DNA of 10,452 bases, from positions 1 to 10,452 of the forward strand of contig JAGDMC010000031.1 in NCBI GenBank assembly GCA_017860395.1. The letters are read 5' to 3'. Shown here in pieces: positions 2-6,914 of this stretch (position 1 is the stretch's first letter; every line of letters begins with the position of its first letter). The notes under the pieces were generated by a model that was given only the letters and a program-made list of their open reading frames with translations, ran no database searches and was not told the origin of the DNA. Source of the DNA: Bacteroidota bacterium (GTDB lineage: Bacteria > Bacteroidota > Bacteroidia > Bacteroidales > UBA932). Made by a program: the position numbers and the translations under genes.

Positions 2-1894
2 AAAAAGTTCGGGTTCGATGCTCAGGCATATAGCGGACGGGTTGCTTCCCTTTACAGAATTCCAAAACCTACTATACTCCATCTGCAAAAAAAGGACGGA
101 CTGCTCCATTTTATAGTATTGTACAAAATTCATAACGGATTTCTTCATATAATGGACCCATTGGATGGGAACATGCACCGACTCAAAATGGAAGAACTTC
201 TAGGGGAATGGAGCGGGAAACTGATAACCCTTGCCCCGGGCAGTGATTTTGAAAAAGGAAACACCGGCATTAAAACAGGTGAGAGACTGCTAAAAATTAT
301 TGTAGCCAACAAGAGAGCACTCATAAATGCGTTCCTGCTCTCTTCACTATATATAATAACGGCATTTGGAATAACACTCTTCGTTAAACAAATAATTGAC
401 AAAATCATTCCCGGTGGAGAGGCAGGTATGCTGAATAAACTTGCTGTTGCAATGCTGCTTCTTTTTTTGCTTTCATTTTTTCTGTCGTGGATGAGATCTA
501 TGCTTTTGCTTAAGACCGGAATAAAAACCGACAAAAAGATTATCGGAGAATATATCCGGCACATGGTAACCCTTCCGCAGCAATTTTTCGATTTAAGAAC
601 AACCGGCGAAATCACTTCAAGAGTTTCTGATGCCTTTAAAATACGGTCACTGGTTACGGAGACGTTTATCGGGATTGCAATTTCCGTTTCTACACTTGTA
701 CTCTCGCTTGCAATAATGTTTATAATATCCGTAAATCTTGCATATACTGCCATATTATTTGTGCCTCTGTATTTTTTAATCTACAAAATTTACGATATCT
801 ACAACAAAAAAGTATACCGCAAAATTATGGAGCAGGGTGCAATGTTCGAGAACACACTCATAGAGACAATCCGTACACAAAAGGCACTCAAGTATTTTGG
901 AAATGAAAATTTTGCCTCAGGCCGGACAAATGCAAGGCTTACAGAGTTATGCGACACATTGTTTAAGTCGGGACGGTTTGGAACCGGCGCCGGCGGAGCG
1001 GCAGAATTTGTATCAAGAGTCCTTACTGTATTAATATTATGGTTCGGAGGGAGATTTCTCATGGCAGGCGAGCTCACTTTGGGTGAACTGATCTCGTTCT
1101 TTACCATTATCTCCCTCTTTTCTGCTCCTCTTTCCGAATTAATTGGAGTAAACTCCATTTTGCGAGAAGGGATGGTTGCAGCAGAAAGACTTTTTGAAAT
1201 TATGGAACTTGATGCAGAGCCTTTGTCGGGCGGGATTACACCGGATTTATCCACTGCAGAGACTATCCGGCTTGAGGGAATAACATTTTCATATCCCGGC
1301 AGGACAACCATTTTTAAAGAACTGAATATTGAACTGAGGCGCGGAGAAATTACCGCATTAAACGGAGAGAGCGGTTCGGGAAAGAGCACCATTGCAGCAC
1401 TTATCCTGAGAATGTACCAGCCACAGGCAGGTACAATAAAAGCAGACGGGATAAACATCAATCATATCAATCTCAGCCACTGGCGATCTTCAGTTTCTGT
1501 CGTACCTCAAAATCCGGAATTATTTGATGCCACAATAATGGAGAATATTGCCCCGGGAGAAGCGGACCCTGATATTGAGAGAATCCTGAAACTATGTGAT
1601 GAACTTAATATTTCTGAATTCGTGGTAAATCTCCCCCTTGGGTTTGAAACCAGAACCGGCGAAAACGGATCCCGTCTTTCCAGAGGTCAGCAGCAAAGAA
1701 TTGCAATGGCAAGAGCTCTATACAGAAATTGCAGCATACTAATACTGGACGAAGCGACTTCCTCTCTGGACAAAGAGTCGGAAGAGTTAATAATCAGTGC
1801 CGTTTTACGCGAAAAAGCGAAGGGACGGATTATTCTGATGATTTCTCACAGCGATATAAGCAGTAGAATATCAGACAGAAGTTATAATATATAA
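2..1894 (+). CDS. Peptidase-containing ABC transporter (C39 peptidase, membrane domain, ATPase), 5' end missing
   Basis: This is a bacteriocin/peptide exporter that cuts double-glycine leaders and pumps the cargo across the inner membrane. The frame is open from base 2, giving 630 visible residues. A TTG at 119 is not the start, because residues before it belong to the C39 peptidase domain: HFIVLY carries the likely catalytic His (bases 107-109) and MDPLDG the Asp (155-157). Their 16-residue spacing equals His96/Asp112 of ComA. The catalytic Cys lies off the window, and about 60 residues are missing if the domain has normal length. Several hydrophobic segments follow (bases about 310-1170), consistent with a six-helix exporter domain. 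The ATPase domain has Walker A GESGSGKST (1364-1390), Q-loop Gln (1508), signature LSRGQ (1676-1690; usual form LSGGQ), Walker B ILILDE (to 1753) and H-loop His (1847). The two peptide genes just downstream are the natural cargo. Confidence 0.93.
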   Translation, partial: KKFGFDAQAYSGRVASLYRIPKPTILHLQKKDGLLHFIVLYKIHNGFLHIMDPLDGNMHRLKMEELLGEWSGKLITLAPGSDFEKGNTGIKTGERLLKIIVANKRALINAFLLSSLYIITAFGITLFVKQIIDKIIPGGEAGMLNKLAVAMLLLFLLSFFLSWMRSMLLLKTGIKTDKKIIGEYIRHMVTLPQQFFDLRTTGEITSRVSDAFKIRSLVTETFIGIAISVSTLVLSLAIMFIISVNLAYTAILFVPLYFLIYKIYDIYNKKVYRKIMEQGAMFENTLIETIRTQKALKYFGNENFASGRTNARLTELCDTLFKSGRFGTGAGGAAEFVSRVLTVLILWFGGRFLMAGELTLGELISFFTIISLFSAPLSELIGVNSILREGMVAAERLFEIMELDAEPLSGGITPDLSTAETIRLEGITFSYPGRTTIFKELNIELRRGEITALNGESGSGKSTIAALILRMYQPQAGTIKADGININHINLSHWRSSVSVVPQNPELFDATIMENIAPGEADPDIERILKLCDELNISEFVVNLPLGFETRTGENGSRLSRGQQQRIAMARALYRNCSILILDEATSSLDKESEELIISAVLREKAKGRIILMISHSDISSRISDRSYNI

Positions 1895-1897
1895 AAA

Positions 1898-1913
1898 GGA
1901 GGGTGCACACTCC
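1898..1913. repeat. Imperfect palindrome downstream of the transporter gene
   Basis: The 73-base gap between the transporter and the first peptide gene contains GGAGgGTGCACaCTCC, a 16-base palindrome with one mismatched pair. The heptamer TGCACAC occurs at 1904-1910 and again at 1924-1930. No T-tract follows, so this is a poor terminator candidate. It could be an operator or RNA structure, or it could be chance. I saw no TAnnTTTG promoter element in the gap, so the peptides are probably transcribed from upstream of the transporter. Confidence 0.25.
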
Positions 1914-1967
1914 GGGTGAACTCTGCACACCATAGTTCTGCAGGGATATATTAAATATTTATAAGCT

Positions 1968-2159
1968 ATGCAAAGTGAAGTGTATGAAGGATGGGGCATT
2001 GTTCCCCTGAGCGAGAGAGAGCTGCTGACCAATGGAGGAGCAGGTAAGCTTAAAAAGCTTGTAGAAATTATTGGCGCTGCAGTGGAATTTTTGCAGAAGG
2101 CAGAGAAGTACTGGCCAAATTTCCGGGATGGTTTCAAGAAAGGATGGGAGGCAGCATAA
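1968..2159 (+). CDS. Double-glycine leader peptide precursor 1 (bacteriocin-like)
   Basis: This 63-residue precursor is probably cut and exported by the adjacent C39 transporter. The leader (residues 1-24) contains LSERELLTNGG, which resembles the LSxxELxxIxGG leaders of class II bacteriocins and Bacteroidetes GG-leader peptides. Cleavage after Gly24 leaves 39 residues with net charge about +3 (eight K/R, five D/E) and no cysteine. Residues 28-48 space hydrophobic side chains as in an amphipathic helix (L28, L31, V32, I35, V39, L42). Pro50 breaks it, and a Trp/Phe/Lys-rich tail with a GxxxG motif (Gly55-Gly59) follows. The ATG at 1968 is the first possible start, since a stop codon lies at 1962-1964 in frame. 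There is no Shine-Dalgarno sequence close to it. The activity of the product is inferred; I do not recognise a named family. Its stop overlaps the next peptide's start by one base. Confidence 0.82.
   Translation: MQSEVYEGWGIVPLSERELLTNGGAGKLKKLVEIIGAAVEFLQKAEKYWPNFRDGFKKGWEAA
2146..2151 (+). promoter_or_regulatory. Shine-Dalgarno-like GGGAGG for peptide 2
   Basis: GGGAGG ends seven bases before the ATG at 2159, a good ribosome-binding spacing. Together with the TAATG overlap it favours 2159 as the start over the in-frame ATG at 2144, which would add only MGGSI. Such a motif is not seen ahead of most other genes in this window. Confidence 0.45.
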
Positions 2160-2371
2160 TGAACAGAGAGTATTGCAACAGTATGTATATTACCGCTCTG
2201 TCGGAAAGAGAATGCTCTGTGGTAAGGGGCGGTGCCGGTGACTGGGACAAGGAAATTGCCGGTTATGTTGGAATGGGTCTGGGTTATGGCATAAAAAAAC
2301 TATGGAGAGCTTTTAAGTTTATGAGTGCTAACCTCTATGAACTACAGAAAAGGGAACAGATTATAAAATAG
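2159..2371 (+). CDS. Double-glycine leader peptide precursor 2 (bacteriocin-like)
   Basis: This 70-residue precursor is likely a partner of the preceding peptide. Its leader LSERECSVVRGG fits the LSxxExxxVxGG consensus position by position (Leu -12, Ser -11, Glu -8, Val -4, Gly -2, Gly -1). Cleavage after Gly25 leaves 45 residues with net charge about +3 and no cysteine; both cysteines (6 and 19) are in the leader. The mature part starts AGDWDKE and continues into a glycine-rich hydrophobic stretch, GYVGMGLGYG (35-44), which holds two overlapping GxxxG motifs (38-42 and 40-44). A basic/aromatic segment, KKLWRAFKF, follows. Such a layout suits a membrane-inserting helix. The start overlaps the previous stop (TAATG), implying translational coupling and matched amounts of the two peptides. 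The alternative start at 2144 is less likely. Function is inferred from the leader, size and neighbours only. Confidence 0.82.
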   Translation: MNREYCNSMYITALSERECSVVRGGAGDWDKEIAGYVGMGLGYGIKKLWRAFKFMSANLYELQKREQIIK

Positions 2372-2437: not shown

Positions 2438-3760
2438 ATGAAAATAATATACAAACTCCCCGTTTTTATCCTCATATTAATCCCGACCCTGCTATCTGCA
2501 CAGCAGAAGCTCTGGAGTCTTGAGGAGTGTATTAAATACGCTTGGGATAATAACCTGAAAATCAAGCAGCAGGAGCTTGTGGTCGAAGAAAGCGACAACA
2601 ATCTGCTGCAATCTAAACTCAACTATGTTCCTTCTGTGAGCGCCTCTGTGAGTCACAGTATGAACTGGGGAAGGTCCGTGAACATGAACGACCTGCAGAT
2701 TATTGAAAATCAGCTTAGCCAGAGCACTAGTGCCTCTGCAAGAGCTTCAATAAATCTTTTTGAGGGAATGGCTAAAAACAATGACCTCAAAAGCAAACAG
2801 GTAATCAGAGAAATATCTGTTCAGGAGGTGAGCAGGATAAAAAATGACATCTCTATTGAAATTGCAAGATCCTATCTTCAGGTTCTGCTGGCAAAGGAGA
2901 TTCTGAATACTGCAAAATCCAGCCTTGCAAGTATTGACGAACAGGTTGTGAGAACGAAAAAGCTAGTGGACGCTGGTAGCCAGGCATACGGTTCGTTGTT
3001 GGAAATTCAGGCCCAGCTTGCAACAGAAAAGCTTCAGCTTACAAATGCAGAAAATCAGGTGAGCAGCAATCTTCTGTCGCTAAAACAACTTCTTGACCTT
3101 TCTACCGACAGCAGCTTTGATATTTCCCTTCCCAATCTTGACAATTTTGTTTCAGACTTCAAGGGGGTGTCCATTGATGAATTATATAGCAACTCTCTGA
3201 ATCTTCCTCAGGTAAAAAGCGTTCGTCTTAGCCGGGATAACTCAAATCTTCAGCTTGCAATAGCAAAAGGACGAAGCTACCCTACTGTTTCTTTTACGGC
3301 GGCCTATGGTTCATATTTTTCCGACACCAGGGATGTGGCCTTTATGACTCAGTTCAATGAAAACAGAAATCCTTCACTTTCGTTTGGCCTGAGCATTCCT
3401 GTTTTTAATTCATGGAGAACCAACACCGCTATTCGTAACGCCCGGATAGAAGTGAAAAAATCGGATATTAATGTAAAGAGTCAGGAACAGCTTCTTTATA
3501 AAGAAATTCAACAGGCAGCAAATGATGCTCACTCCTACTTTGCCCGCTTTAAAGCAACGGAAGACAATGTTAAGGCAATGCAGGAATCATTCAGATATGT
3601 TCAGCAGAAATTTGACGTGGGAACTCTTAATGCAACTGACTATACAGTTGCCAAGGCAAATCTTTTCAAAAGCCAGTCCGATTTCTATCAGGCAAAGTAT
3701 CAGTATATTTTCCAGCTTAAAATTCTGGATTTTTATAAAGGAAACCCTATTACACTTTAA
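2438..3760 (+). CDS. TolC-family outer membrane efflux/secretion channel
   Basis: This 440-residue outer-membrane factor forms the exit duct of tripartite export systems across the outer membrane and periplasm. A signal peptide is evident: MKIIYK, a hydrophobic core, then LLSA with likely cleavage before QQKLWSLEEC. The usual OEP opening WSLEECIKYAWDNN follows. Two long Gln/Asn/Ser-rich coiled-coil halves carry the internal repeat typical of the family, with strand regions near INLFEGMAKNN and LSIPVFNSWRTN and a closing KFDVGTLNATDYTVAK segment. The length is normal for Bacteroidetes members. The adaptor gene follows after 32 bases. The promoter just upstream makes this the first gene of its unit, so it may serve the peptide exporter, another ATPase such as a MacB-like pump located elsewhere, or both. 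Confidence 0.93.
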   Translation: MKIIYKLPVFILILIPTLLSAQQKLWSLEECIKYAWDNNLKIKQQELVVEESDNNLLQSKLNYVPSVSASVSHSMNWGRSVNMNDLQIIENQLSQSTSASARASINLFEGMAKNNDLKSKQVIREISVQEVSRIKNDISIEIARSYLQVLLAKEILNTAKSSLASIDEQVVRTKKLVDAGSQAYGSLLEIQAQLATEKLQLTNAENQVSSNLLSLKQLLDLSTDSSFDISLPNLDNFVSDFKGVSIDELYSNSLNLPQVKSVRLSRDNSNLQLAIAKGRSYPTVSFTAAYGSYFSDTRDVAFMTQFNENRNPSLSFGLSIPVFNSWRTNTAIRNARIEVKKSDINVKSQEQLLYKEIQQAANDAHSYFARFKATEDNVKAMQESFRYVQQKFDVGTLNATDYTVAKANLFKSQSDFYQAKYQYIFQLKILDFYKGNPITL

Positions 3761-3792: not shown

Positions 3793-5055
3793 ATGAAAAA
3801 GAGTTTTAAATGGATAATCGCAGCAGCGGTCCTAATAATAGCTGTACTGATAATATTCGGAACAAAAAATAAAAACAAGGCCATTGAGGTTACATCCGAA
3901 GTCATCTCTAAAAAAACTATTACAGAAGTCATTCCTGCCAACGGTAAGATAAGACCTGTAGTTGAGGTAAAAATATCCCCAGACGTATCCGGTGAAATAA
4001 TTGATCTCAACTTTAAAGAGGGAGATTTAGTTAAGAAGGGCGATCTTATAATTAAAATTAAGCAGGATGTGTATATATCAATGAAAGAAAGGTCAGAAGC
4101 CTCGCTTAATTCTATAAAGGCTCAGTTAACCCAGCAACTTGCACAATTCAGCCTGGTTGAGCAGACTTATAAGCGCAGCAAAACCCTTTTTGACCAGAAA
4201 GCAATTTCTGAATCGGAGTATGAGAATGCGCTTTCTCAATATAATGTTACAAAAGAGCAGATAAAAGCTGCTGAATTTAACGTTAAGAGTGCAACAGCTG
4301 CTCTTAAGGAAGCTCAGGAAAACCTTATCAAAACAACCATATATGCACCTATGGATGGCATAATTTCAAAGATGAGCGTAGAAAAAGGTGAAAGGGTTGT
4401 AGGAACAAGTCAGATGGCGGGAACAGAATTGCTTCGCATCGCAAATTTCGACCACATGGAGGTTCTTGTTGATGTTAACGAAAATGATATTATCCGTATT
4501 AAGCAAAATGATACTGCTTCCATTGAGGTTGATGCATATCCTAATCGCAAGTTCACAGGTGTTGTTACACAAATTGCAAACTCTGCAAAAAATATCGGTT
4601 CATCTGTTGAACAGGTAACAAATTTTGAAGTTAAGATTCTTATACTTCCCGAATCTTATTCTGATCTTATTGTTAACGGTAAAAATCCTTTCCGCCCCGG
4701 AATGTCTGCAACTGCATCAATCCAGACAGACAAGAAGTATAATATCCTTACAGTTCCGCTTCAGGCAATTACAACCAGAACAGACCTTAAAGGAGACACA
4801 ACTAAAAAAGCAAAACTTGCCGATGAGATGCTGGAACAGGTATTTGTCATAAAGGCCGACAATACTCTTGAAGTGAGAGAGATTACCACAGGTATTCAGG
4901 ATATTTCAAATATTGAAGTAGTTAAAGGACTCAAAGAGGGTGACAAAGTTGTTACAGGTCCTTATTCTGCTATCAGTAAAACTCTTAAGGCCGGCACTAA
5001 AGTAGCAGGAAAAAAAGAGGAGAAGGCTCCTCCGGTAAATAAAAAAGCTAAATAA
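3793..5055 (+). CDS. Periplasmic adaptor (membrane fusion protein), HlyD/RND/MacA-like
   Basis: This 420-residue adaptor links an inner-membrane pump to the TolC-type channel encoded just before it. A single N-terminal membrane segment (about residues 6-22) anchors it, with no lipobox. The first half of the barrel-sandwich (lipoyl-like) domain reads VVEVKISPDVSGEIIDLNF..GDLVKKGDLI. A coiled-coil hairpin (about residues 95-180) follows, and the second half is TIYAPMDGIISKMSVEKGERV. A beta-barrel and membrane-proximal region follow and end in a Lys-rich tail. The architecture resembles MacA/RND adaptors more than the long-hairpin HlyD of type I secretion. No MacB or RND pump gene is visible here; the only ATP-driven exporter in the window is the peptidase-containing transporter upstream. 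The stop codon overlaps the tsaB start by one base. Confidence 0.92.
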   Translation: MKKSFKWIIAAAVLIIAVLIIFGTKNKNKAIEVTSEVISKKTITEVIPANGKIRPVVEVKISPDVSGEIIDLNFKEGDLVKKGDLIIKIKQDVYISMKERSEASLNSIKAQLTQQLAQFSLVEQTYKRSKTLFDQKAISESEYENALSQYNVTKEQIKAAEFNVKSATAALKEAQENLIKTTIYAPMDGIISKMSVEKGERVVGTSQMAGTELLRIANFDHMEVLVDVNENDIIRIKQNDTASIEVDAYPNRKFTGVVTQIANSAKNIGSSVEQVTNFEVKILILPESYSDLIVNGKNPFRPGMSATASIQTDKKYNILTVPLQAITTRTDLKGDTTKKAKLADEMLEQVFVIKADNTLEVREITTGIQDISNIEVVKGLKEGDKVVTGPYSAISKTLKAGTKVAGKKEEKAPPVNKKAK

Positions 5056-5753
5056 TGTTTGTTCCGCAACTGCTTTTAATTGAAACAAGCACCGAGGTTT
5101 GTTCTGTTGCGCTCAGCCGCGGAACGGAAATTATTGCCGAAAGGATAATAAAAGAGCCAAAGGCACACGCAAGAATAATAGGCAATTTTATAGAGGAGGT
5201 CATGAAAGAGGCCTCCTCCTCTGTTGCCGCTTGCAGCGCAATAGTTGTGAGTGAAGGTCCCGGTTCATACACCGGACTCCGCGTTGGGGTATCAATAGCA
5301 AAAGGACTGTGCTATGGTTCAGGAATTCCCATGATTGCCGTGAGTTCTCTGGAACTTCTTGCAAGGCTTTGTGCAGAAAGCGGAGAAATGCCCGAAGGAG
5401 AGTTGACAATTGCACCTATGATTGATGCAAGAAGGATGGAGGTCTATACATGCAGGTATAATCGCAATTGTATTCCTGTTTCCAAAACAGAGGCACTTGT
5501 ACTGGATGAAAATAGCTTTTCCGAAGAATTATCTGCGGGACCTGTTATCTTTACGGGAGATGGCGCAAAAAAGGCAGCGGAGTTAATAAAACACGCGAAT
5601 GCCATTTTCCGTTTTACGGATGCTTCCGCCAGAGGAATGGCTGCTCCTGCATTTGAAAAATTCAATAAAAAAGAATTTGTAGACACGGCATATTTCGAAC
5701 CTTTCTATCTGAAAGATTTTGTGGCCGGTATTTCAAAGCGGTCTCTGCTCTGA
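5055..5753 (+). CDS. tsaB: tRNA threonylcarbamoyladenosine biosynthesis protein TsaB
   Basis: TsaB is the non-catalytic scaffold that pairs with TsaD (and TsaE) to place threonylcarbamoyl on A37 of ANN-decoding tRNAs in the cytoplasm. The 232 residues begin with the ASKHA-fold strand LLLIETSTEVCSVAL and carry the diagnostic GPGSYTGLRVG motif (residues 68-78), followed by KGLCYG and the VSSLELLA helix. The length is normal. The ATG at 5055 shares its A with the adaptor's TAA (TAATG), so translation is probably coupled to the adaptor and no separate promoter is seen. The link to an export operon is not mechanistically obvious; it may be an inherited gene order. The gene ends 15 bases before the convergent lipoprotein gene. 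Confidence 0.95.
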   Translation: MFVPQLLLIETSTEVCSVALSRGTEIIAERIIKEPKAHARIIGNFIEEVMKEASSSVAACSAIVVSEGPGSYTGLRVGVSIAKGLCYGSGIPMIAVSSLELLARLCAESGEMPEGELTIAPMIDARRMEVYTCRYNRNCIPVSKTEALVLDENSFSEELSAGPVIFTGDGAKKAAELIKHANAIFRFTDASARGMAAPAFEKFNKKEFVDTAYFEPFYLKDFVAGISKRSLL

Positions 5754-5768
5754 TTTTCTGTCTGAATT

Positions 5769-6914
5769 TTATCTGACCAGCGATGAGATGAGTGATTCAA
5801 GTTTTGAGTCATAAACATCTTTTGCAGCTATTGAGCCGCTTTTGTCTATAACATAGAGAGTAGGTGCTTTTTGCACATTATATGTAGTAACGGCAGGAGA
5901 AGAAGATCCGAGACCGTCACAGACATTAATCCATGGAAGTTGCTGTTCTGCAACTGTATTGGCCCACGCTGTTTTGTCCGTATCTACCGAAACCTGATAA
6001 ATTTCCAGCCCTTTAATGCTGTATTTATCATAAAGAGCCAGAAGATCTCTGTTGAATATCTTCTGATTTACATCGGTAACGGACCAGAAAAGAAGGATAA
6101 CAACCTTACCCGAAAGGTCCGAAAGTGTTCTAACCTTAGCTTTTGTATCAGGAAGAGAAATATCAGGAAAGCCAACTTCCGATGCATCAAGGAGTTTAGA
6201 ATTGAGCATATCCGATTTTCCTCTTACCGAAATTTCGTCCAGAAGTGCATTTAAATATGACGACTGCGGATATACCGGCTGAAGTGAATCATATACTCTC
6301 TGGAAAAGCAAAACATCCCTTACATCTCCAAAAAGAGGCAGATTGCCGGGGAATTTATAATAGAGAAGCGGAATATTTGTAATCGATCCGGGATTTGAAT
6401 AAAGATGTTTTATAGCAGCCTGTTTGCTTTTTACATAGAGCGATCCGAGCTCGTATCCGAGCGTGTCTTCCAGCTCTTTATTGCCGGCAAGTACAGCCTG
6501 TGCCCTCAAAGAAGACAATGAATCAAATTTTGAAGTAGCCAGAGAGAGGTTTTTCTCAATTTCAAGGAAAAGAATACTCTCCTGAGAGCCTTCTATATTC
6601 TGGTTTGCACCCAGAGTGTCTGTGGTTATGTATATATTGTCTCCCGGCAATACAACCATTGAGGCAATTTTTTTCTCTTTGTAATAAAGGAAGTAGAAGT
6701 TGGGAGCTTTACCTTCAATTTTTGCAGAATATTTTAGCAACCCGTTTTCATCTGTCTTAAGAGTGTCGACAATTTTTTGGGTATTAATTTCCAATACTTT
6801 AAGAACTACTTCACCTTTTTTTAGTCCTTCAATTTTTGCTTTAAGCGTTGCTTTGTTGGAACTGCAAGAAAAGGTAAATGCCGAAATAAGAACAAAAAAG
6901 AGGAATTTTCTCAT
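5769..6914 (-). CDS. Lipoprotein with DUF4369-like N-terminus and cysteine-less thioredoxin fold
   Basis: This is a 381-residue predicted lipoprotein. The signal peptide MRKFLFFVLISAFTFSC puts the lipidated Cys at 17. Residues about 22-115 resemble the DUF4369 domain common in Bacteroidetes thiol-disulfide proteins (beta-rich, with VVLPGDNIYITTDT). A helical linker follows, then a TlpA/AhpC-like thioredoxin domain (about 250-381) with GKVVILLFW, EIYQVSVD and the cis-Pro loop KAPTLYVID. Where TlpA proteins have WCxxC, this protein reads FWSVTDVNQ (276-284). The expected cysteines are therefore Asp281 and Gln284, and the only other Cys is 332. It cannot act as a classical dithiol reductase, so a binding or structural role is more likely. 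It lies five bases after the HIT gene and is probably the last gene of the greA unit. Confidence 0.85.
   Translation of the reverse strand: MRKFLFFVLISAFTFSCSSNKATLKAKIEGLKKGEVVLKVLEINTQKIVDTLKTDENGLLKYSAKIEGKAPNFYFLYYKEKKIASMVVLPGDNIYITTDTLGANQNIEGSQESILFLEIEKNLSLATSKFDSLSSLRAQAVLAGNKELEDTLGYELGSLYVKSKQAAIKHLYSNPGSITNIPLLYYKFPGNLPLFGDVRDVLLFQRVYDSLQPVYPQSSYLNALLDEISVRGKSDMLNSKLLDASEVGFPDISLPDTKAKVRTLSDLSGKVVILLFWSVTDVNQKIFNRDLLALYDKYSIKGLEIYQVSVDTDKTAWANTVAEQQLPWINVCDGLGSSSPAVTTYNVQKAPTLYVIDKSGSIAAKDVYDSKLESLISSLVR

Follow-up and report, generated by a model that had tools for sequence, protein, structure and literature searches.

A putative class IIb-like two-peptide secretion operon with a pseudoknot leader in a genus of Bacteroidales

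In the 10,452-nucleotide stretch of Bacteroidales DNA analysed herein (referred to as the window), two overlapping small genes, pepA and pepB, were found to encode double-glycine (GG) leader precursors (A and B) next to a C39 peptidase-containing ABC exporter (PCAT), and their organization suggests that they specify, on balance, a secreted two-peptide, class IIb-like membrane-active system. Comparison of the related sequences established the genes, their tandem layout and co-inheritance, their motifs, the selection acting on them, and the pairing and near-constant spacing of an RNA pseudoknot in front of pepA. In the proposed mechanism, pepA and pepB, whose frames overlap, would be translated together, the adjoining ABC exporter would cleave the precursors after the GG by means of its C39 domain, and the released peptides would exit via that exporter, the membrane-fusion protein (MFP) and the TolC protein specified by the surrounding genes. 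Once outside, the two presumed amphipathic helices would pair through their GxxxG faces and act as a bacteriocin on a membrane, the most probable target being related bacteria. The pseudoknot, the 3' end of which lies approximately 20 nt before pepA, would set the amount or timing of the pair's translation relative to that of the exporter. The class IIb architecture is here a chromosomal trait fixed in a Gram-negative group, with no immunity gene beside the peptides in most loci seen, which makes it testable whether the double-glycine peptides of Bacteroidales are weapons or signals.

Operon layout and inheritance

The initial annotation had placed two overlapping GG-leader genes 73 bases after a C39 exporter, and the coordinates, leaders and domains were all confirmed. 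The exporter gene (positions 2-1894, plus strand; Pfam Peptidase_C39, ABC_membrane and ABC_tran) has lost its start at the contig edge, namely approximately 56 N-terminal residues including the catalytic Cys, which are present in a 96%-identical relative; the window's copy retains the C39-site His and Asp as well as the Walker A motif. Of the 26 genus exporter ORFs, 23 contain the C39 Cys motif; those without it (the window, L146 and L148) are cut by contig ends. The exporter stop (1894) is separated from the pepA ATG by a gap of 73 bases (1895-1967). The pepA gene (1968-2159, plus strand) encodes a 63-aa precursor with its GG at 2034-2039 (residues 23-24) and an invariant G55xxxG59, and pepB (2159-2371, plus strand) encodes a 70-aa precursor with its GG at 2228-2233 and G38xxxG42. 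The mature cores of 39 and 45 residues given earlier were likewise recovered, at 2040-2156 and 2234-2368, respectively. Both leaders are of the LSERE type and end in GG. In the window the pepB ATG sits on the pepA stop (TAATG); B would comprise 75 aa if the ATG at 2144 were used.

Downstream of pepB, the co-directional run continues with the genes for a TolC-type outer membrane efflux protein (2438-3760, plus strand; Pfam OEP, E 3e-45) and an HlyD/MacA-type MFP (3793-5055, plus strand; Pfam HlyD_D23 and HlyD_3), and ends with a tsaB-type gene (5055-5753, plus strand; Pfam TsaD, E 2e-26). The TolC gene begins 49-74 nt after pepB in 25 of 25 genus loci. The MFP cluster was present in 33 of 35 loci and was also located directly 5' of other PCATs in L131, L132 and L137. 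The tsaB cluster was found in 30 of 35 loci, and the tsaB-type gene probably accompanies the operon as a conserved neighbour and has no working role in it. Convergent with the operon lies a gene for a thioredoxin-like protein with DUF4369 (5769-6914, minus strand), the cluster of which was found in 29 of 35 loci. Its genes make the operon a complete unit for the secretion of double-glycine peptides, in which the TolC and MFP genes complete the export route.

In 25 of 35 loci, the exporter was preceded by a CvpA-family gene linked to ileS (for example, L111 10284-10778). Because it remained with ileS, away from the exporter, where the locus was rearranged (L136, L138 and L139), CvpA was set aside as a partner of the system. 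Approximately 6 kb 5' of the exporter lies an ECF sigma factor gene (L111 15989-16480), the cluster of which was found in 21 of 35 loci.

The tandem pair adjoining the exporter was found in 25 of 25 genus genomes, including that of the window (an assembly of 73% completeness), and in all 25 the B ATG overlapped the A stop (offset 0). These observations contradicted a lack of conservation beside homologous transporters, which the initial annotation had named as grounds for abandoning its proposal. The order CvpA - exporter - A - B - TolC - MFP - tsaB, together with the outer neighbours, recurred in the genus loci within contig reach, and the exceptions were gene-calling gaps, such as L112 without a called CvpA ORF. 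The earlier view of the two peptides as co-secreted GG products thereby gained support from their linkage to the exporter and their pairing. To the initial annotation the present analysis adds the constant location in genus and family, the GxxxG motifs common to both peptides, the TolC and MFP genes, the Abi-type gene found in one genus and the pseudoknot.

Diverged pairs were also encountered in other genera, where they occupy the equivalent position. Beyond the genus, profiles built almost wholly from genus members matched 45 (A) and 37 (B) of the 199 sampled family genomes. A family-wide A profile raised this tally to 114 of 199 genomes in 14 of 25 genera at E 0.01, a few of the weakest matches being possibly due to chance. 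In the order sample, the family-wide A profile matched 6 of 393 genomes, of which three belong to the window's genus and the other three are weak matches. The B profile matched 37 of 393 at E 0.01, four of them belonging to the window's family (E 2e-8 or better); the other order-level B matches (E 9.6e-5 or weaker) lay mostly within ORFs of 320-550 aa and were taken as noise. For comparison, 60 loci were chosen by peptide-profile match (L230 and L242, which lack the pair, were dropped), and because this match was the selection criterion they do not represent a random sample of the family. Among them, 30 loci from other genera hold the pair, and 26 of these 30 hold exporter and TolC together. 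As for the remaining loci, L212 and L240 run off the contig, L213 is without TolC or MFP in the fetched stretch, and in L214 (G213) pepA and pepB are flanked by the exporter on one side and tsaB on the other, the intervening TolC and MFP genes being missing. The exceptions L213 and L214 count against a full export unit, in that the complete set is not universal at the locus. The locus is single-copy and vertically inherited in the genus, and in its mode of inheritance it behaves like a core trait, both of the genus and of a large share of the family.

Motifs, selection and predicted structure of the mature peptides

GxxxG was present in all 60 A cores, compared with a mean of 14.2 and a maximum of 24 in shuffled cores. 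Among the 61 B cores, 56 carried GxxxG (shuffled mean 15.9, maximum 26) and the other five AxxxG, and [GA]xxxG was accordingly present in 61 of 61 (shuffled mean 30.6, maximum 42). In the loci chosen by the B profile alone (L231-L241, n = 11), A carried GxxxG in 11 of 11, and in those chosen by the A profile alone (n = 17; L211-L229 without L221 and L224), B carried GxxxG in 13 and AxxxG in four; in these subsets, the GxxxG result is partly independent of how the loci were selected. Across the family-wide alignments, the invariant columns were M1, the cleavage-site GG and G55/G59 for A, and the GG and G42 for B.

The statement of the initial annotation that both cores carry a charge of approximately +3 and no Cys held for the window (net charge +3 each, no Cys), and failed as a description of a conserved trait: the core charge varied from -5 to +4 in A (60 loci) and from -4 to +6 in B (61 loci), and Cys was present in 16 of the 61 B cores. 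The cores measured about 32-49 aa across the loci, the shortest lengths and a few inaccurate charges arising from the A cores of L231, L233 and L234, which were cut at a second GG. Pooled over five species pairs, pN/pS amounted to 0.079 for the A core and 0.050 for the B core, and to 0.124 and 0.221 for the A and B leaders, the A leader value resting on few changes (3 nonsynonymous). The B core is thus more constrained than the B leader, and the mature cores are under purifying selection, being held rather than diversified.

Each of the window cores was predicted to form a single long helix with modest AlphaFold confidence (pLDDT 71 and 61). Compared with shuffled versions of the same core, 56 of 60 A cores and 44 of 61 B cores ranked in the top 5% for hydrophobic moment; the B core of the window was not among them (p 0.081). 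Database searches retrieved homologues for both peptides (eight proteins for A and five for B). The earlier remark that the cores belong to no named family agreed with the Pfam and NCBIfam searches, in which A, B and 26 members of each gave no match above the cut-off. A PDB sequence search with the A and B profiles returned designed helices and chance matches only (best E 0.4 and 0.18, respectively).

The RNA leader in front of pepA

The 73-base gap between the exporter and pepA turned out to be conserved in structure. Immediately 3' of the exporter stop lies P0, a near-palindromic hairpin (1898-1913, plus strand) with a GGAG/CTCC stem and a GTGCAC loop, the pattern of which, GGAGNGTGCACNCTCC, occurred as a single site per genome, always at this position, in 20 of 25 genus genomes. 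The pairs of this predicted stem are invariant in the genus subset and offer no covariation there; the palindromic hairpin might pair two transcripts. P0 is followed by an H-type RNA pseudoknot (1915-1945, plus strand), in which P1 joins 1915-1918 with 1928-1931 and P2 joins 1921-1927 with 1939-1945. The window's pseudoknot ends 22 nt 5' of the pepA ATG, and the distance from the pseudoknot to the A start was 16-24 nt in 22 of the 23 genus loci measured. From this near-constant distance to the start codon, we infer that the pseudoknot gates pepA translation.

When the 95 nt 5' of A were scanned, 49 of 60 loci showed a strong pseudoknot, as against 19 of 600 shuffles. The scan keeps the best placement per sequence, by which pairing percentages on scan placements are inflated; the placements used for pairing came from 49 of the 60 loci (eight without placement and three odd ones were left out), 44 of them distinct. 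In a chosen genus subset (12 rows, nine distinct), 98.4% of the cells paired, compared with 33-62% when the partner was slid. A covariance model comprising the hairpin and P2 only (R1), trained on 12 genus genomes, the other 13 lying outside the training set, matched the element in 25 of 25, and the best match was always at the pepA gap. A regulon sought with this RNA in the genus genomes was not found, no site off the locus scoring better than E 0.008. In the 60 fetched loci, which total 712 kb, R1 gave 37 matches, all in the gap, and missed 23 loci (E 0.1).

P1, which is absent from the model, paired in 96% of 126 cells versus 36-79% when slid, in an alignment fitted without P1, and exchanged C-G for U-A (17 and 13 sequences, respectively). 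It exceeded all 500 shuffles for the cells paired and for the covariation score, and was unremarkable for the number of pairs altered on both sides and for additional pair types (45 and 469 of 500 shuffles, respectively). For P1 and P2 jointly, 42 cells were changed on both sides against a shuffled mean of 12.3. The plus strand was assigned as the structured one because the G-U pairs of P2 would be A-C mismatches on the opposite strand. A wider model (R2) reached fewer of the 199 family genomes than did the A profile, namely 54, with 59 matches at E 0.01 or better. When these 59 were compared with 65 of the pepA rows from the family-wide A profile, 46 of the 59, the best 39 among them, lay 0-120 nt 5' of a pepA match and 13 lay elsewhere; 13 of the 46 belonged to genomes outside the loci fetched earlier. 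On this evidence, the pseudoknot is a real structured leader with compensatory changes, as far as sequence comparison can tell.

The aptamers of the preQ1-I and SAM-II riboswitches are small H-type pseudoknots located just before a start codon. The element described herein resembles them in being small, H-type and just 5' of the pepA start, and differs from such aptamers in having no Rfam match, no strongly conserved loop and no second site above noise in the genus. Rfam gave 0 matches in 20 sources at the gathering score, and the window stretch itself matched only at E above 8. As no strongly conserved loop that would mark a ligand pocket was seen, the pseudoknot is not called a riboswitch; with its covarying pairs, it is a candidate RNA switch tied to one secretion operon. 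In L136, a long stretch of short tandem repeats (GAGATTATTAT type) separates the exporter from pepA, an arrangement seen in this one genome.

Relation to known systems and possible function

Class IIb bacteriocins are known mainly from Gram-positive bacteria, as weapons with a dedicated immunity gene. The present locus resembles those of lactococcin G and the plantaricins EF, JK and S in that two GG-leader precursors of helical peptides of approximately 40 aa are adjacent, a GxxxG or GxxxG-like motif is carried by both peptides, and a dedicated C39 exporter adjoins them; such motifs are reported for all class IIb bacteriocins characterised so far (PMC6382864). Unlike class IIb operons, that described herein is Gram-negative with TolC and MFP genes, fixed and vertically inherited, and in the window it carries an RNA pseudoknot leader and no immunity gene. 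The lactococcin G/enterocin 1071 models (NF038034 and NF038035) were matched only far below the cut-off (A, 15.3 bits against 37), with weak matches of NF038034 in 2 of 26 A members and of NF038035 in 1 of 26 B members (E 0.082), and membership in the lactococcin G family was therefore rejected. Because the structural marks examined are present, the window lacks an immunity gene and synergistic antimicrobial activity is putative, we refer to the pair as class IIb-like, this class being the closest by architecture, rather than as a member.

With regard to immunity, no such gene was found in the window operon, where the pepB-tolC gap is approximately 64 nt, and in 52 of the 58 loci measured, the window's genus included, this gap is too small for a gene; the dedicated immunity protein of class IIb is thus missing from the window and from these 52 loci. 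In the genus g45, a gene for a membrane protein of approximately 240 aa with EExxxR and FxxxH motifs is inserted between pepB and tolC in all six fetched loci (L235, L236 and L238-L241) and in none of the other 52. It matched Pfam PF02517 (CPBP/Abi; E 1.5e-14 to 1.6e-16) in all four of the six that were scanned. Abi proteins have been reported as the immunity proteins for plantaricins EF and JK (PMC8538875, PMC6957408), and the Abi-type gene of g45, a likeness to these plantaricins confined here to one genus, is an immunity candidate. CPBP genes also occur elsewhere in 24 of 25 genus genomes, with no listed site near the operon; being scattered off the operon, they are therefore uninformative on immunity. 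The missing immunity gene is not decisive in Bacteroidales, because bacteroidetocin producers have also been described as lacking evident immunity and as inhibiting themselves (PMC6671954).

The comparison with bacteroidetocins and class IIb bacteriocins recommended by the initial annotation led, in addition to the class IIb-like marks without an immunity gene, to the rejection of a bacteroidetocin identity. Bacteroidetocins share with the pair the Bacteroidales host, the GG leader, the C39 exporter and the lack of an evident immunity protein (PMC6671954). They are class IIa-related, contain at least two Cys and have, next to the exporter, a gene for a transmembrane protein and in most cases one for a thiol oxidoreductase, whereas the window cores have no Cys and neither gene adjoins the window's exporter. 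Class II microcins such as colicin V likewise combine a GG leader with PCAT-MFP-TolC export, and a further likeness is the CvpA-family gene 5' of the exporter in 25 of the 35 loci described herein; unlike the pair, colicin V is a single peptide, and the CvpA gene here stays with ileS in rearranged loci. The nearest earlier report is that of Bacteroidales clusters in which GG-motif precursors accompany adjoining PCATs (PMC10352776), one of which also holds PCAT, MFP and outer membrane protein genes. Those are modified-peptide (RiPP) clusters, and neither a two-peptide GxxxG pair nor an RNA element is among the features described in the accessible part of that report. In the open-access literature, as covered by titles and the starts of abstracts, neither the pair nor the RNA was described. 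A class II bacteriocin atlas previewed in PMC12648078 mentions candidates in Bacteroidota, and a Hungate1000 survey (PMC13289728) lists 21 predicted two-component clusters with AxxxA/GxxxG/SxxxS motifs; precursors of the present kind may be included in either.

Several findings were counted against a bacteriocin: no immunity gene in the window operon or in 52 of 58 gaps, cores that are neither variable nor mobile but conserved and passed on vertically, a zero or negative core charge in many relatives, the amphipathicity of the window's B core (p 0.081), and lactococcin G matches far below the cut-off. It is conceivable, with appreciably lower probability, that the peptides take the same cut-and-export route as a secreted signalling or developmental pair acting on the producer's own population, in quorum sensing or differentiation. 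A single-copy, vertically inherited genus locus, strong purifying selection on the mature parts with the B core tighter than the B leader, and the 52 of 58 loci without a gene between pepB and tolC would suit such a role, as would the non-toxin function reported for a Gram-negative PCAT, HetC in Nostoc (PMC10986499). The operon of g45 with its Abi-type gene would suit it less, and no sensor kinase was found among the annotated neighbours (a subset), though the ECF sigma factor gene is located upstream. It would, moreover, be unusual for signals to consist of two amphipathic helices that are encoded together and carry matching GxxxG motifs, which counts against this role.

A pair acting on the cell surface seems unlikely, although Caulobacter provides a Gram-negative precedent in CdzC and CdzD, two small GxxxG proteins released by type I secretion, for which extended glycine zippers, the immunity protein CdzI and contact killing have been reported (PMC5380434). 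In the Cdz manner, the helices would aggregate on the producer surface and act by contact, and the weakly charged, amphipathic cores of many relatives would be compatible with this behaviour; the cores of about 32-49 aa, however, showed on inspection no evident extended glycine zippers like those of CdzC/D, and the window operon has no gene in the place of CdzI. That the small ORFs are unexpressed or remnants was already disfavoured and is scarcely credible, because their database homologues, the tandem copies in 25 of 25 genomes and the core pN/pS of 0.08 (A) and 0.05 (B) in five species pairs argue against chance, as do the conserved start/stop overlap and the covarying RNA leader at near-constant spacing.

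The secreted class IIb-like membrane-active pair thus remains our preferred reading. A bolder version of it, which we put forward tentatively and hold to be rather improbable, is that a core two-peptide membrane-active system, kept by much of the family and gated in translation by the single-locus pseudoknot, serves a household social function instead of warfare. If true, this function would be kin communication or self-directed membrane control, exerted by an RNA-gated relative of class IIb bacteriocins.

The three order-level A matches outside the family were also inspected. L250 showed no GG peptide of this kind, and in the 3-kb loci L248 and L249 the operon genes were not found, except for a weak MFP match in L249 (E 7e-4). 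L248 and L249, from other Bacteroidales families, encode GG peptides ending in GxxxG-Y and GxxxG-W, respectively, which are possible distant relatives, and in L249 a second GG peptide is encoded nearby.
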